32,445 nucleotides of DNA. Source: Rodentibacter trehalosifermentans. Lineage in GTDB: Bacteria > Pseudomonadota > Gammaproteobacteria > Enterobacterales > Pasteurellaceae. The notes beneath the pieces were generated by a model, which saw nothing but the letters and a program-made list of their open reading frames with translations, had not been told where the DNA came from and did no database searches. Of the stretch, positions 1 through 5,195 are shown one piece after another (position 1 is the stretch's first letter; every line of letters begins with the position of its first letter). Position numbers and translations under genes: made by a program. The DNA is taken from assembly GCF_002000545.1 (NCBI RefSeq), contig NZ_MLHL01000035.1:1-32445 (forward strand), given 5' to 3'.

Positions 1-43
1 AATCATCAAGAAGAATAAAATCATCATCAAATTGGTTTTTCAT
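1..43 (-). CDS. 5' end of a truncated gene of the mobile element
   Basis: The first 14 codons of a minus-strand gene run off the left edge. The visible peptide begins MKNQFDDDFILLDD and is strongly acidic. The ATG at 43-41 follows a GAGG ribosome-binding site with 5 bases between. It lies downstream of the AlpA and coiled-coil genes on the same strand, but the terminator at 148-174 and a repeat-bearing gap separate it from them, so it probably has its own promoter. In related satellite elements this position often holds a replication or regulatory gene, but too little is visible to assign a function. Confidence 0.6.
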   Translation of the reverse strand, partial: MKNQFDDDFILLDD

Positions 44-101
44 ACATGCCTCAATACTGTTTATTTATATAGTAAAGATAGCACAATATTTTTTGTTTGA
101 A

Positions 102-141
102 TAGTCTCAAGTCGTCCAAATTCGTCCCAAATCGTTCAAAA
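102..141. repeat. four tandem 10-bp repeats upstream of the left-edge gene
   Basis: Three close units follow one another without a gap: TCGTCCAAAT (112-121), TCGTCCCAAA (122-131) and TCGTTCAAAA (132-141). A weaker fourth unit, TAGTCTCAAG, precedes them at 102-111. The 10-base period puts each unit on the same face of the helix, as expected of binding sites for an oligomerising protein or replication iterons. They lie about 60-100 bases upstream of the ATG at 43. Two related units occur upstream of the AlpA gene at 1142-1161. Confidence 0.65.
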
Positions 142-147
142 CAACAT

Positions 148-174
148 AAAAAAGCCCCGTATTTTCTACGGGGC
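148..174 (-). terminator. intrinsic terminator after the coiled-coil gene
   Basis: GCCCCGTA (154-161) and TACGGGGC (167-174) form a perfect 8-bp GC-rich stem with a 5-base loop. On the minus strand it is followed by six U from the A run at 148-153. It sits 21 bases beyond the stop of the 195-890 gene and should end the AlpA/coiled-coil transcript. Confidence 0.9.
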
Positions 175-194
175 GTTACGTCCAAAATTTTCAA

Positions 195-890
195 CTACTG
201 ATTAGCCAGCTCTTCTATTTCTCGTATATATTCACGCTTTTGCCATGAGCTGTCACCTTGGGTTGGTATGGTAAATTTGATCTCCGGAATATTAATTTTT
301 AAATGGCTAATATCAAGTTTTTCATCTAAATGAGTTTTGATTTTACTAACAAAGAAATTCAAGAAAGCATCTCTATAATCATAGTTAATATAATTCCCAA
401 ATAGGACACTACTTTTATTTTCAAATAGAACTGAATAGATTTCATTGATTTTCTTCATAGATTTACTTTTGAAGAACTCTTCCATAAATTCTTGAGCAAC
501 TAGATCTAGAGCTTTTGTTTTGATACTGATAGAGTTATCTGAAAATGCTTTATACTCTGTGATTAGTAGAAGTTTTAATTTCGCATCAAATTTTGTGATA
601 ACTTTATTTAGCGCATTAATCTTTAACGTATTTTTACTCACAAGTTCAGACACTTCATCAAAACCATCAAAGTTAATTTCACCGGTATCACTTACTTGAA
701 GATTATCAATTTCTTTTTGTGCCTCTTGGTTTTCCTGTTCCAGTGCCTCAATCATTTTTTGATTACGTTCAATATTTGATTTAATCGTTAAAGCCTTATC
801 TTGAACGGCTAAAAAGGCTTGATTATTTTTGTTAAGTTCTGCAATCAGTTTTTCGAGTTCCGCTTGCTTTTCCGGATTTTGTAGTGTCAT
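195..890 (-). CDS. uncharacterised coiled-coil protein of the mobile element
   Basis: A 231-residue protein I do not recognise. Residues about 5-70 are rich in Glu, Lys, Gln and Leu with heptad-like spacing (for example IEALEQENQEAQKEI), which predicts an N-terminal coiled coil. Residues 70-231 are mixed charged and hydrophobic with no catalytic motif I can name. There is no signal peptide or membrane segment. The start codon overlaps the stop of the upstream AlpA gene as ATGA (890-887), so the two are translationally coupled. A strong terminator follows. The pairing suggests a job under AlpA control, such as regulation, replication or interference with a helper phage, but this is inference from position only. 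Confidence 0.85.
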   Translation of the reverse strand: MTLQNPEKQAELEKLIAELNKNNQAFLAVQDKALTIKSNIERNQKMIEALEQENQEAQKEIDNLQVSDTGEINFDGFDEVSELVSKNTLKINALNKVITKFDAKLKLLLITEYKAFSDNSISIKTKALDLVAQEFMEEFFKSKSMKKINEIYSVLFENKSSVLFGNYINYDYRDAFLNFFVSKIKTHLDEKLDISHLKINIPEIKFTIPTQGDSSWQKREYIREIEELANQ

Positions 891-1108
891 TGGTTTATCT
901 CCTGTTGGTTTCGTTTGTTAATTTGTTCTTTCATCCAGGCATTCACTTCACTTTCAAGCCAAACTGAATTTTGTTTATTCAGTTGAATACTTTTAGGAAA
1001 TTCACCGGCTTTCATATTTCGATAGATTGTGGAGCGCCCTAAGCCTGTTTTATTCATCACTTCCGGCAGTTTGATAAATCGTTCCGCCTGTGCTGTCTTC
1101 TCGGCCAT
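887..1108 (-). CDS. AlpA-family DNA-binding regulator
   Basis: A 73-residue protein of the AlpA family (MerR/excisionase-like winged helix-turn-helix). The visible family pattern is FIKLPEVMNKTGLGRSTIYR, then GEFPKSIQL near residues 43-51, then a Trp and a SEVNAWMKEQ helix. Relatives regulate integrase or excision, and in Gram-negative phage satellites an AlpA-type protein is the main activator of the element. I chose the ATG at 1108 because AAGGAAA lies four bases upstream. An in-frame ATG at 1123 has no ribosome-binding site and would add five residues. The gene is coupled to the coiled-coil gene by a 4-base ATGA overlap. The related decamers at 1142-1161 are 34-53 bases upstream of its start. 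Confidence 0.9.
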   Translation of the reverse strand: MAEKTAQAERFIKLPEVMNKTGLGRSTIYRNMKAGEFPKSIQLNKQNSVWLESEVNAWMKEQINKRNQQEINQ

Positions 1109-1141
1109 AACTTTCCTTATCATAAAAAAGTAGATTCATAG

Positions 1142-1161
1142 GTATCCAAATTCATCCCATT
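1142..1161. repeat. two decamers related to the 102-141 repeats
   Basis: GTATCCAAAT (1142-1151) and TCATCCCATT (1152-1161) match the units at 112-131 at about 7 of 10 positions each and in the same order. They lie just upstream of the AlpA start codon, as the first set lies upstream of the left-edge gene. They may be a shared operator. Confidence 0.5.
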
Positions 1162-1266
1162 GGATAGGGCAAAAATAAAATATTTATCTCGGATCGAATA
1201 GAAAATTTAATTGTGAAATGAGAAATCACAATAAAAGGATAAAAAATAAACAATTCTTAGACATGA

Positions 1267-1304
1267 CACGGAAATTTCTCACGGAAAATTCCACGCCACG
1301 GAAA
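1267..1304. repeat. three direct CACGGAAA repeats
   Basis: CACGGAAA occurs at 1267-1274, 1280-1287 and 1297-1304, spaced 13 and 17 bases apart, in the divergent region of the element. The second and third copies share the longer form CACGGAAAAT. This is a candidate operator or replication iteron. No function is established. Confidence 0.55.
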
Positions 1305-1582
1305 ATCCACTTCCTCCCCCGCCGAATTTGCGTTAAAAATTGATAAAATTACAGTTAATTTTCAGCCTATAAAATGCCGTAAAGCCTTGCTACATATAGC
1401 TTTAAACGCACTGATTAAGCCAATTCTTAACTGTAAAAATTACACACTTTTTCACTATTTTTCAGCTAAGAAAAAATGTAATTTTCTTGATATAAAATAT
1501 AACTATTTGATTTATAATAAATTTCAAGATTTTCCGTGGGGTTATTTGCAAGAAAAGCATTTCAGTTAAGAGAGAAGGGAAA

Positions 1583-1753
1583 ATGATAGAATGTAAAATA
1601 TGCGGCTCAAAAGCTCTAATAAACAAAAGCCAAAGAGAACATAAAGAATTTACTAAGCTCTATTGCACCTGTAAAAATCAGGATTGCGGGCATAAATTCG
1701 TATTAAATTTAGAATTTAGCCACACAACAAAGCCTAGTAAATTAAAAGAATAA
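1583..1753 (+). CDS. Ogr/Delta-like zinc-finger activator, possibly shortened
   Basis: A 56-codon gene with AGAAGG five to seven bases before the ATG. Cysteines at 4, 7, 30 and 35 give C-x2-C-x22-C-x4-C, the zinc-binding signature of the P2 Ogr / P4 Delta family. These proteins switch on late promoters of P2-like phages. The surrounding CKNQDCGHKF and SHTTKPS also fit the family (compare CQNVNC in Ogr). The gene converges on the integrase and ends 74 bases before the integrase stop. After its TAA the same frame stays open for 37 more codons (1754-1864) of protein-like composition, resembling the helical C-terminal tail of longer Ogr-like proteins. This suggests a nonsense mutation in a gene of about 94 codons. 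The zinc finger itself is intact. Confidence 0.85.
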   Translation: MIECKICGSKALINKSQREHKEFTKLYCTCKNQDCGHKFVLNLEFSHTTKPSKLKE

Positions 1754-1827
1754 GATTATTTTAAATATATCCTCACTTGTTTACCGAATGACAAAAAACA
1801 AGAAATTTTAGAGGTGTTAATGAATGA

Positions 1828-3036
1828 TCAAGCGCAAAGTGCCTTAAATTTACATTCTTCCACATAATCGCCCCATTTCTGCATAATTTCTTGTCGGGAG
1901 CGCCATTTTTTCGATTTATCATACGCCGCGCGCACCTTACCGCGGTTCTCATGGGATAAACAAAGCTCAATGGCTTCAGATGAAAAAATATCAAGCTCAT
2001 GAAGATAAGTACTGGCAATACTGCGCAAGCCGTGAGCGACTAACAAATCTTTAAATCCCATTCGTTTCAATGCCACGTTAGCCGCACCGCTATTCATAGG
2101 GCGATTATAAGGCGCAACACGGCTACAAAACACATATTTACGGCTGCCCGTATAACGGCGCATTTGCTCTAACACATTCAAGGCTTGAGAAGAAAGCGGA
2201 ACACTGTGAGGGCGCTTACCACCTTTCATTCGCTCTGCCGGAATATGTAAGGCTTTCGCCTCCCAATCAATATCAGCCCATTCTATCGTCACCGCCTCGG
2301 AACTTCTCAAAATGCTCAATAACTGCCACTCGATTAAAAGTGCGGTCGGTCTCTTCACATCTGCCCCTTGTAACACTTGGAATAGGCGCGGCAAATCTTC
2401 CGGCTTAATGGTCGGGTGATTCCTCGTCTCTACATACGTAAATTCATCATGAATATTGCGAAAAGGATTCTTAATAATTAAATCCTCATCTTCTGCCATT
2501 CTAAAAATCTGATTAATAGCAATATTGATCTTATAAAGCGTATTGGAATTTTTCAGCGGAGAAAGAGCCGGGCGAAAAGTCTCATAATTTGCCTCATCAA
2601 TCGGCAAATCCGCGATTTTAGGGAATAAATGCAATTCCACGCGGCGGAATGCTTCATTGACTGTCTGCGCCTTTAATTTACCCACCCTCAACCGCTTATC
2701 ACGCCACCTAACCGCCATTTCTGAAAAAGTGATTTTCTTTTCTTCGGTAGTTTCATTTAAATCTTGCCGATGCTTTAGCGGGTCAATATTACGCAAGATA
2801 AGCCCTCGATATTCTTGAGCTATTTCCCGTGCATGGGCAAGGGATAAATCAGGGAATGCGCCCAAACTTAGCTTTCTATGTTTGCCTTGCCATTTATAGG
2901 CAAAATACCAAATTTTAGCGGAATTGGGTTTAACTCTAATATAAAGCCCGCCCCCATCTGATTTAATGTATTCTTTCTTCGTTGGTTTAAGATTCTGAAT
3001 TGTTGTGTTTGTTAAAGGTTTAACTATCTTGCTCAT
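1828..3036 (-). CDS. int: P4-type tyrosine integrase
   Basis: A 402-residue site-specific recombinase that inserts and excises the element at a tRNA gene. Residues about 5-90 form the arm-type DNA-binding domain of the P4 integrase group (SDGGGLYIRVKPNSAKIWYF, then KLSLGAFPDLSLAHAR). A core-binding helical domain covers about 100-200. The catalytic set is complete: Arg244 (in SILRSSE), Lys271 or Lys274, His335-x-x-Arg338 (HGLR), His362 and Tyr372. Length is normal for the family, so the protein is probably active. The start faces the 3' end of tRNA-Ser 200 bases away, the usual arrangement for this integrase class. The gene contains one full uptake signal at 2338-2346. Confidence 0.95.
   Translation of the reverse strand: MSKIVKPLTNTTIQNLKPTKKEYIKSDGGGLYIRVKPNSAKIWYFAYKWQGKHRKLSLGAFPDLSLAHAREIAQEYRGLILRNIDPLKHRQDLNETTEEKKITFSEMAVRWRDKRLRVGKLKAQTVNEAFRRVELHLFPKIADLPIDEANYETFRPALSPLKNSNTLYKINIAINQIFRMAEDEDLIIKNPFRNIHDEFTYVETRNHPTIKPEDLPRLFQVLQGADVKRPTALLIEWQLLSILRSSEAVTIEWADIDWEAKALHIPAERMKGGKRPHSVPLSSQALNVLEQMRRYTGSRKYVFCSRVAPYNRPMNSGAANVALKRMGFKDLLVAHGLRSIASTYLHELDIFSSEAIELCLSHENRGKVRAAYDKSKKWRSRQEIMQKWGDYVEECKFKALCA
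2338..2346 (+). repeat. DNA uptake signal inside the integrase
   Basis: A complete AAGTGCGGT, extended to AAAAGTGCGGTC, within the integrase coding sequence. It is the only perfect copy in the element part of the window. It suggests long residence in, or descent within, Hin-type Pasteurellaceae. Confidence 0.9.
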
Positions 3037-3072
3037 ATCACATCATCTCATAAAGAATAAGGTGTAATCGCA

Positions 3073-3119
3073 TTTTTAGATCCCTCGTAAAAAGCCCTAA
3101 ACAGTGAGGGATCTAAAAA
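3073..3119. repeat. 14-bp perfect inverted repeat between integrase and tRNA
   Basis: TTTTTAGATCCCTC (3073-3086) and GAGGGATCTAAAAA (3106-3119) are exact complements around a 19-base loop. Neither strand has a U run directly after the stem, so it is not a classic terminator. It lies 37-83 bases upstream of the integrase start, where an operator for integrase expression or a recombination accessory site would sit. Confidence 0.75.
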
Positions 3120-3153
3120 GTGCGGCTATAAGCAATCAGATATAAATAGTAAT

Positions 3154-3228
3154 GAACATTAATGAATAATAACTCATTGAAATATCAATAAATTTTATCT
3201 GAAACGAACATTGGTGAACGTTGATGAA
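3154..3228. repeat. decamer repeats TGAACRTTRR next to the attachment site
   Basis: GAACATTAATGAA (3154-3166), GAACATTGGTGAA (3206-3218) and GAACGTTGATGAA (3216-3228) share GAACRTTNNTGAA. The last two overlap so that units recur every 10 bases. They end nine bases before the tRNA CCA end. Directly repeated sites here fit arm-type integrase or excisionase binding sites. Confidence 0.55.
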
Positions 3229-3236
3229 TTGTATTC

Positions 3237-3326
3237 TGGCGGTGAGAGGGGGATTCGAACCCCCGATGCACTTTCGCACATACACGCTTTCCAGGCGTGC
3301 TCCTTCAACCACTCGGACATCTCACC
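3237..3326 (-). tRNA. serX: tRNA-Ser (anticodon GGA), integration target
   Basis: A 90-base tRNA gene including an encoded CCA end (3239-3237). The acceptor stem GGTGAGA pairs with TCTCACC, followed by discriminator G. The anticodon stem-loop CACGCCTGGAAAGCGTG gives anticodon GGA, and the long variable arm (TGTGCGAAAGTGCA) is the serine type. The T arm GGGGGTTCGAATCCCCC is intact. The P4-type integrase and its element abut the 3' end, so the tRNA 3' part is the likely attachment core, restored on insertion. The gene symbol follows E. coli usage for tRNA-Ser(GGA) and is tentative. Confidence 0.95.
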
Positions 3327-3342
3327 GTGTTGAGGTGCGCAG

Positions 3343-3371
3343 ACTATAAAGATTTGTATCGGTTTAGTCAA
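3343..3371 (-). promoter_or_regulatory. promoter of tRNA-Ser
   Basis: On the minus strand TTGACT (3371-3366) and TATAGT (3348-3343) are separated by 17 bases, close to the sigma-70 ideal. The -10 lies 17 bases upstream of the tRNA 5' end. Confidence 0.8.
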
Positions 3372-3452
3372 GTTTTTTTGAGCTAGAACATAAAAATCTT
3401 TTCATATTTTCGCTAGAATATCGGAGTTTTATTCACTTTTTGTCGTTTTTTT

Positions 3453-5195
3453 ATGCACGTTAAATCATTATTTTCCAAAAATGTGTTTTTAGCCGTAAAA
3501 CCCTTCAGCGCATTGAAAGATTCTTTTCGTCTAGGCTATACGAAAAAATTATTGGTTCGGGATATCATTGCGGGTTTAACCGTGGGGGTGATTGCTATTC
3601 CGCTTTCTATGGCATTGGCTATCGCGAGCGGCGTTCCTCCGCAACACGGGCTTTATACCGCCATTATCGCCGGCATAGTCATCGCACTCACCGGGGGCTC
3701 ACGTTTCAATGTATCCGGACCCACTGCTGCCTTTGTGGTGATTTTATATCCCGTCACCCAACAATTCGGGTTGAGCGGATTGCTGATGGCTACCTTGCTT
3801 TCCGGTGTAATCTTAATTTTAATGGCATTATTCCGTCTTGGTCGCTTAATAGAATATATCCCGTTGCCGGTAACCTTAGGTTTTACCTGTGGAATCGGTA
3901 TAACTATCGGTACGTTACAAATTAAAGATTTTCTCGGCTTGAAGATTGAACAGATGCCAGCACATTATTTGGAAAAAATTCAGGCTATTTTTACCGCACT
4001 TTCGACAATAAATTGGGCTGATGCAATCGTAGGGATCACAACATTGTTGGTATTAACACAATGGCGTAAATTACGCCTTGCCATACCCGGTCATTTACCT
4101 GCCGTGATAATCGGCACAATATTGGCATTGCTCTTACAATATGTCGGTTTTCATATTGAAACAATTGGCTCTGCATTCCAATATACGTTACCGGATAGTT
4201 CTATAGGGCAGGGTATTCCCAATGTGTTACCCGATTTTGCTTTGCCGTGGAATGTGCCAAATGCACAAGGTGAATTAGTACAATGGAATTTTGATAGTTT
4301 GCAAACCTTATTGCCGGCTGCGTTTTCCATGGCGGTTTTAGGGGCGATTGAATCCCTCCTCTGTGCCGTAGTGCTGGATAATATGACAGACACTAAACAC
4401 CATTCCAATGATGAATTGTTAGCCCAAGGTTTAGGCAATATTGTCTCGCCTTTCTTTGGCGGTATTACAGCCACGGCAGCCATTGCCCGCTCTACTGCCA
4501 ATGTGAAATCCGGTGCGGTTTCGCCTATTGCCAGTGTAGTACACGCACTTTTAGTACTATTTGCTTTATTGCTTTTCGCTCCAGCCCTTTCTTATTTACC
4601 ACTTTCATCTATGGCAGCCCTCCTGTTGGTAGTGGCATGGAATATGGCGAGCGTACAGGAAATCATCACCCTTGCCCGTCGTTCAGGCAAGAATGAAATG
4701 ACGGTATTATTGACCTGTTTAATTTTGACCGTGCTGTTTGATATGGTAATTGCTATCAGTGTTGGTGTATTGCTTGCGAGCTTGTTATTTATCCGCACCA
4801 TTGCGGAAATGACCAAAGCCATTGAGCATAATGCCCCGGAAGATCTCAATGATGTGTTGGTTTATCGCATCAGCGGTCCTTTATTTTTTGCTGCAGCAGA
4901 TAAATTGTTTGCGGATCTACATGATAAGACCGTGCATACGGATCACGAAATCAAACATATTGTTTTGCAATGTGATGCGGTGACGGTGTTGGATACCGGG
5001 GGAATTCATGCTCTCACCCGTTTTGTGCAACATATGTTGCCCCATCAACAACTTTATTTATGCAATATGCAATTCCAGCCACTGAGAATGTTGGTAAAAT
5101 CCAACACTACGCCGGAAATACAAAAAATTAATTTTGCTTCGGATTTAAAAGATACTTTTAATAAAATTCGTGATTTTGAGCATTCTAACCCATAA
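3453..5195 (+). CDS. SulP-family anion transporter with STAS domain
   Basis: A 580-residue inner-membrane transporter of the SLC26/SulP family (relatives include E. coli DauA and bacterial sulfate or bicarbonate carriers). The signature is near the N terminus: [20 protein letters not shown], followed by [14 protein letters not shown]. Many hydrophobic segments cover residues about 40-450. Residues about 465-570 form a cytoplasmic STAS domain, with [19 protein letters not shown] matching its conserved loop. The substrate cannot be read from sequence. No good ribosome-binding site precedes the ATG; GGAG lies about 30 bases upstream. The gene has one internal uptake signal (3993-4001). It is not part of the integrated element: it lies on the far side of the tRNA. 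Confidence 0.93.

Follow-up and report, generated by a model that had tools for sequence, protein, structure and literature searches.

Introduction

The Ogr protein of coliphage P2 is 72 residues long and contacts RNA polymerase near residue 42, and part of its C terminus is reportedly dispensable. According to published work it is a zinc-binding activator whose cysteines are spaced C-x2-C-x22-C-x4-C (PMC3931495), and Ogr mutations have been described that suppress an RpoA defect (PMC11434276). That Ogr and Delta act as activators, and that the satellite P4 makes use of P2 Ogr, has also been described (PMC3931495, PMC8628076, PMC7552001). A limited literature search found no publication on C-terminal truncations of P2 Ogr. 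Within the Pasteurellaceae, the closest described relatives of the protein considered here are the Ogr homologues of Pasteurella phage F108 and of Haemophilus HP1/HP2 (Peduoviridae), which have the same four-cysteine domain followed by a homologous tail, with 43-49% identity across the position at which our reading frame stops.

Here, we report an analysis of an ogr/Delta-like gene in a 32,445-nucleotide stretch of Rodentibacter trehalosifermentans DNA (contig NZ_MLHL01000035.1, positions 1 to 32,445), referred to below as the window. In F108 and HP2 the ogr gene adjoins the portal gene of a P2-like phage, whereas the window ogr lies next to a satellite integrase gene and is interrupted at codon 57. 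Its profile similarity to P2 Ogr extends over residues 2-41, and P2 Ogr has no match to the helical tail. On balance, we favour the reading that the ogr gene of a capsid-carrying Pasteurellaceae satellite of about 11 kb was recently hit by a nonsense codon at position 57, and the shortening was probably an ordinary recent mutation that spared the zinc-binding part. Among the matches listed, judged by title and the start of the abstract, we found no publication on this satellite.

Results

The interrupted reading frame

As now read, the ogr/Delta-like gene (1583-1753, plus strand) encodes 56 amino acids, comprising a four-cysteine ribbon-like domain and a linker, and ends in TAA. The former 3' part of the gene (1754-1867, plus strand) comprises 37 codons and a further stop, and two helices are predicted for it. 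The in-frame TAA at 1751-1753, the 37 sense codons that follow it up to the TAA at 1865-1867, and the 40-base overlap of the 94-codon frame with the 3' end of the integrase gene (1828-1867) had all been described in an earlier note on this DNA and were reproduced from the sequence. The note had also regarded the finger as complete within the 56 codons. This holds: Cys 4, 7, 30 and 35 give the motif C-x2-C-x22-C-x4-C, and the 56-residue product scores 50.2 bits against PF04606 (Ogr/Delta; cut-off 26.3, E 2.4e-13). The same product matches phrog_603, a transcriptional regulator family, with an E value of 5.6e-20. When the 94-residue frame is compared with X at the stop, the phrog_603 match reaches residue 82 and the score rises from 73.3 to 75.2 bits. 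Separate production of the tail is unlikely because the first in-frame start-like codon 3' of the stop is the GTG at codon 78.

The AlphaFold2 model of the 94-residue frame, built from 37 sequences, has strands at residues 10-20, 23-30 and 38-44 and helices at 56-66 and 69-91, with a mean pLDDT of 81.9 and a pTM of 0.45; the block-mean pLDDT is 91-94 up to residue 40, the linker is weaker, and confidence drops beyond residue 80. Modelled alone, the 56-residue protein retains the three strands at a mean pLDDT of 80.5. The stop at codon 57 is thus predicted to remove both helices and to leave the three-strand ribbon. This two-helix tail is typical of Pasteurellaceae phage Ogr; it is absent from the 56-residue product and present in the downstream frame and in the relatives. 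A fold search with the full-frame model against the PDB gave no match at E 0.001, and a profile search of solved structures gave a weak similarity of residues 3-43 to the RPB9 zinc ribbon (E 7e-4).

Homology and constraint of the tail

The earlier note had likened the tail to the C terminus of longer Ogr-like proteins, and the homologues bear this out. The 94-residue frame is matched by 112 phage records, 48 of which cover at least 80% of the query. The six best phage matches span query residues 2-83 to 2-89 of 94 and therefore run past the stop; the F108-like phages, HP2 and ESSI-2 align from residue 2 to residues 77-89. The HP2 record (NC_003315; L054 3001-3258) itself has no CDS for the Ogr homologue, only a terminator being annotated there. 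Homologues pass through position 1751 with a sense codon, as the note had expected of a gene that was shortened: the four near copies of the window gene (G121, G123, G131 and G102), which are 93-96% identical, all have a glutamine codon at position 57. G121 and G123 carry the genus label of the window's genome, and G131 does not.

More widely in the family, a match to the ogr frame was found in 27 of 140 Pasteurellaceae genomes, giving 30 Ogr_Delta loci, and 26 of these have 33-47 residues beyond an F-S-H landmark. The exceptions are the window (nine residues), G051:C16 (eight), G025 (25) and G027, which lacks the landmark. Homologues in viral contigs (n = 42) are all longer than 56 residues, at 79-108 residues, two of them (L057 and L086) running to the contig end; the C terminus of the distant members looks different. 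A search of the viral contigs with the 56-residue product returned no relatives, and the plasmid records held no near match to window positions 1-3500. A chance open frame is ruled out by the homology to phage and Pasteurellaceae Ogr, and by this comparison the tail is homologous, formerly coding sequence.

Comparison of the window gene with its four near copies places the stop in time. Just four of 285 sites are private to the window (in codons 2, 3, 11 and 57) and none lies in the tail; measured against the divergence of the copies, the stop is therefore young. Across the five copies, codons 1-56 show 12 synonymous and five nonsynonymous changes (P 2e-5 to 1e-4 against neutrality). Tail codons 58-81 show five synonymous and three nonsynonymous changes, again fewer nonsynonymous changes than under neutrality, at P 0.015-0.034 depending on the assumed transition bias. 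The one synonymous and two nonsynonymous changes in codons 82-94, where the frame overlaps the integrase gene, are not significant. The leader immediately 5' of the ogr start codon varies between copies.

The satellite element

The ogr gene is convergent with an open tyrosine integrase gene of 402 codons (1828-3036, minus strand; PF13356, PF00589, phrog_1). On its other side lie the genes for a 78-residue AlpA-like regulator (887-1123, minus strand; PF05930, E 6.5e-19) and for a 231-residue satellite protein of unknown function (195-890, minus strand). The latter has matches in 13 of the 140 Pasteurellaceae genomes, the window's included; it matched nothing in Pfam at E 1 or in phage records, and a search of viral contigs gave no relatives. 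A tRNA-Ser (GGA) gene found with ARAGORN beside the integrase end (3237-3326, minus strand) is the probable attachment site. The same tRNA-Ser(GGA) lies beyond the integrase in L032, L033 and L035, and the L034 stretch of G102 yielded no such gene. In G131 and G123 a 14-bp core, TGGCGGTGAGAGGG, occurs at both element ends and delimits elements of about 11 kb. In G131, G123 and G102 the integrase gene is followed by ogr, which lies on the other strand, then by alpA, the 231-residue gene, a variable gene, a capsid gene and further genes; the G121 contig breaks next to ogr.

Several repeats lie in the interval between alpA and ogr. Three CACGGAAAATYC-like direct repeats occupy window positions 1267-1308, with an inverted copy nearer ogr at 1528-1542, and these are possible iterons or an operator. 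The same interval has TTACAGTTAA / TTAACTGTAA-like repeats and a TGTAAAAATTACA dyad at 1349-1358, 1427-1436 and 1559-1569, which are largely conserved in three aligned relatives.

The window contig (C53) starts inside the element, and we place the remaining half on contig C43 of the same genome. C43 carries a P2-family capsid gene (L044 103-1101; PF05125, E 2.6e-70), a gene for a small HTH protein slightly below the AlpA cut-off, a gene for a 76-residue cysteine protein that matches Ogr_Delta weakly and below the cut-off, at 17.7 bits (L044 1356-1586), and genes for an Ash-family protein (PF10554, E 4.8e-18), a 736-residue DUF927 protein (PF06048) and a ParE-type toxin. We infer that C43 and C53 belong to one element from the gene order, from the match to both ends of the corresponding G131 stretch, and from the presence of one 231-residue gene, one satellite-type capsid gene and one over-cut-off ogr in the genome. 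A second Ogr in the same genome was rejected, as no other protein there exceeds the PF04606 cut-off; there are four weaker matches, including the 76-residue protein on C43, which could have a bearing on how much ogr is needed.

An exact 121-bp repeat links window positions 3130-3250 with positions 6402-6522 of C43 (G000:C43:6402-6522, G000 being the window's genome). It comprises the att core and integrase-side DNA at the other element end, next to tat genes, as if it were the remnant of another element end.

The satellite capsid is 39-47% similar to capsids encoded within a few kilobases of 14 of the 15 prophage-type Ogr genes. Contig C57 was considered as a source of the helper and set aside: its P2-family capsid gene is just 31% similar to that of the satellite, its neighbours having been judged by eye.

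Lesions and short forms in other copies

Lesions are common among the other copies. The integrase is broken in two of the four near copies, by a frameshift in G102 and an in-frame stop in G121, and G123 has a stop at ogr codon 85, which leaves 84 residues, near the usual length. The ogr of G025 has been shortened by a frameshift to 77 residues. The window copy is otherwise without visible decay, since the other element genes seen are open.

Thirteen of the 30 Ogr loci have an integrase as neighbour and 15 a portal gene, and two (L020 and L024) could be assigned to neither type; in one locus of the integrase type (L025) ogr lies on the integrase strand. The integrase-type Ogr of G015:C6 (L011 near 1501) lacks the first cysteine of the motif. 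The portal-type genes keep the tail in all 15 cases, and the 13 integrase-type genes include two that are tailless (the window and G051:C16) and one, in G025, that is shortened by frameshift. This contrast between satellites and prophages is not significant by Fisher's test (p 0.087 for 3/13 against 0/15; 0.21 if 2/13 are counted), and its rows are not independent, several being close relatives.

The second tailless form belongs to a homologous satellite in another genus. The Ogr of G051:C16 (L131 7748-7930) has 60 residues with all four cysteines and stops in the same linker, and the integrase end follows 19 bases further on. Owing to this ending in the linker with the integrase so close behind, the tail appears to have been lost by deletion rather than to have been freshly stopped. 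Besides the integrase and the 60-residue Ogr, the satellite encodes proteins of 247 and 351 residues, a 330-residue capsid protein (38% match), a 741-residue protein and a further protein that resembles the Ash protein by eye. A search of viral contigs with the short Ogr gave no relatives, and its nine phage-record matches all fall in the F108/HP2/ESSI-2 group. A search for ogr relics beside the relatives of the 231-residue gene in G090 and G120 gave chance-level pieces, the G090 stretch stopping short of the integrase.

Discussion

Possible consequences of the stop

The earlier note had offered a point mutation that shortened the gene among its explanations, and this one is best supported. 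The cell would then make a 56-residue protein with a complete four-cysteine ribbon, lacking the two-helix tail of its relatives. The protein presumably acts on late promoters in the manner of Ogr and Delta, its truncated form is presumably impaired, and the stop allele would be one among several lesions that integrated copies of the satellite build up. Judged from the sequence, one satellite copy has probably lost this function, wholly or in part. Against such an impairment speak the intact finger and P2 Ogr, which, with its 72 residues, lacks a profile match to the tail. Moreover, a ribbon-only activator may be tolerated or even functional, given the tailless 60-residue Ogr of the related satellite in G051, which makes a viable short form of Ogr possible.

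An alternative that we hold to be unlikely, though it deserves weight, is that the 56-residue protein is a working activator, in which, as with P2 Ogr, the ribbon alone contacts DNA and RNA polymerase; the tail would then be dispensable, or in satellites would do no more than tune activity or helper choice. The three strands are predicted to persist without the tail, P2 Ogr aligns over the ribbon residues alone, and the Ogr of G051:C16 ends in the same linker. The suppression of an RpoA defect by Ogr mutations, the polymerase contact near residue 42 and the C terminus of P2 Ogr, said to be partly dispensable, point the same way. Nevertheless, the tail is kept in every prophage-type Ogr gene and is constrained in the satellite copies, and all 42 viral-contig homologues are longer, although the C termini of distant ones look different. 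A conserved target site was also not found. Of the TGT-N12-ACA sites through which Ogr/Delta activators work at late promoters, window positions 1-3240 contain none, against 0.9 expected, and the other four element stretches contain one or two, against 1.9-3.8 expected. The site common to C43 and G131 falls in the DUF927-type gene, and a site upstream of ogr in G131 is not conserved in the other copies. The earlier note had proposed that an activator lacking its tail might act differently on the late genes of a helper; the search for TGT-N12-ACA in noncoding DNA gave no site that the element copies share.

It is rather improbable that satellites repeatedly shed the Ogr tail because a ribbon-only activator serves them better, the surveyed phages keeping theirs. 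The routes in such a case would be a nonsense codon in the window, an apparent deletion in G051 and a partial loss by frameshift in G025, and the gain might be, for example, escape from tail-dependent control or access to a wider set of helper promoters.

We consider it quite improbable that the stop arose through faulty sequencing or assembly. The genome is a draft of 122 contigs and the stop was observed once, but one base has been exchanged without insertion or deletion, and the gene has three further substitutions private to this copy. Readthrough at some rate, giving short and full-length proteins, was another option of the earlier note; we hold it to be very improbable and reject it as the main reading. 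In its favour, the frame beyond the stop remains open and has no window-private changes. With four private sites overall, however, an intact tail is expected without selection and is no evidence for translation past the stop. Moreover, codon 57 is a sense codon in each of the four near copies, and there is no positive sign of readthrough beyond the intact young tail.

A recent nonsense mutation, our preferred reading, draws attention to the C-terminal two-helix tail of Pasteurellaceae Ogr, which is without a match in P2 Ogr. The tailed forms (in prophages and most satellites) and the tailless forms (in the window and G051) are natural alleles with which the role of this tail can be probed.

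Comparison with known satellites

In P4, an activator of the Ogr type, Delta, is likewise borne by the satellite, along with an integrase, an excisionase/regulator and epsilon. If C43 does hold the rest of the element, as its genes suggest, then the P4-like set of integrase, delta, AlpA and epsilon (Ash), as listed in PMC8628076, would be present here. P4 Delta has 166 residues in two finger-like halves (by eye) and is encoded between sid and psu, whereas the window Ogr has one domain and its gene, flanked by those for the integrase and AlpA, is the only one there on the plus strand. Psu gave no match at E 0.01 among ten proteins (nine from C43 and one from G102) and none at E 1 among the four window gene products scanned, a search that in the window's genome reaches the gap between C43 and C53 from either side. 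The 736-residue protein has no match at E 0.01 to the P4-type alpha primase (PF03288) and matches PF06048 (DUF927) instead.

The window element also shares a trait with PmCI172, a PICI of Pasteurella multocida: besides int and alpA, both in the window, it has a major capsid homologue of its own, on C43. PmCI172 is also a Pasteurellaceae satellite with a major capsid protein homologue, and we liken the two by gene content, as given in its description (PMC6092414, PMC6893505). The helper of PmCI172 is described as a Mu-like phage, and the word 'ogr' is absent from the main text of these two papers (PMC6092414, PMC6893505). By analogy with what has been speculated there for PmCI172, the satellite's own capsid protein may possibly redirect capsid size (PMC6893505, PMC6092414).
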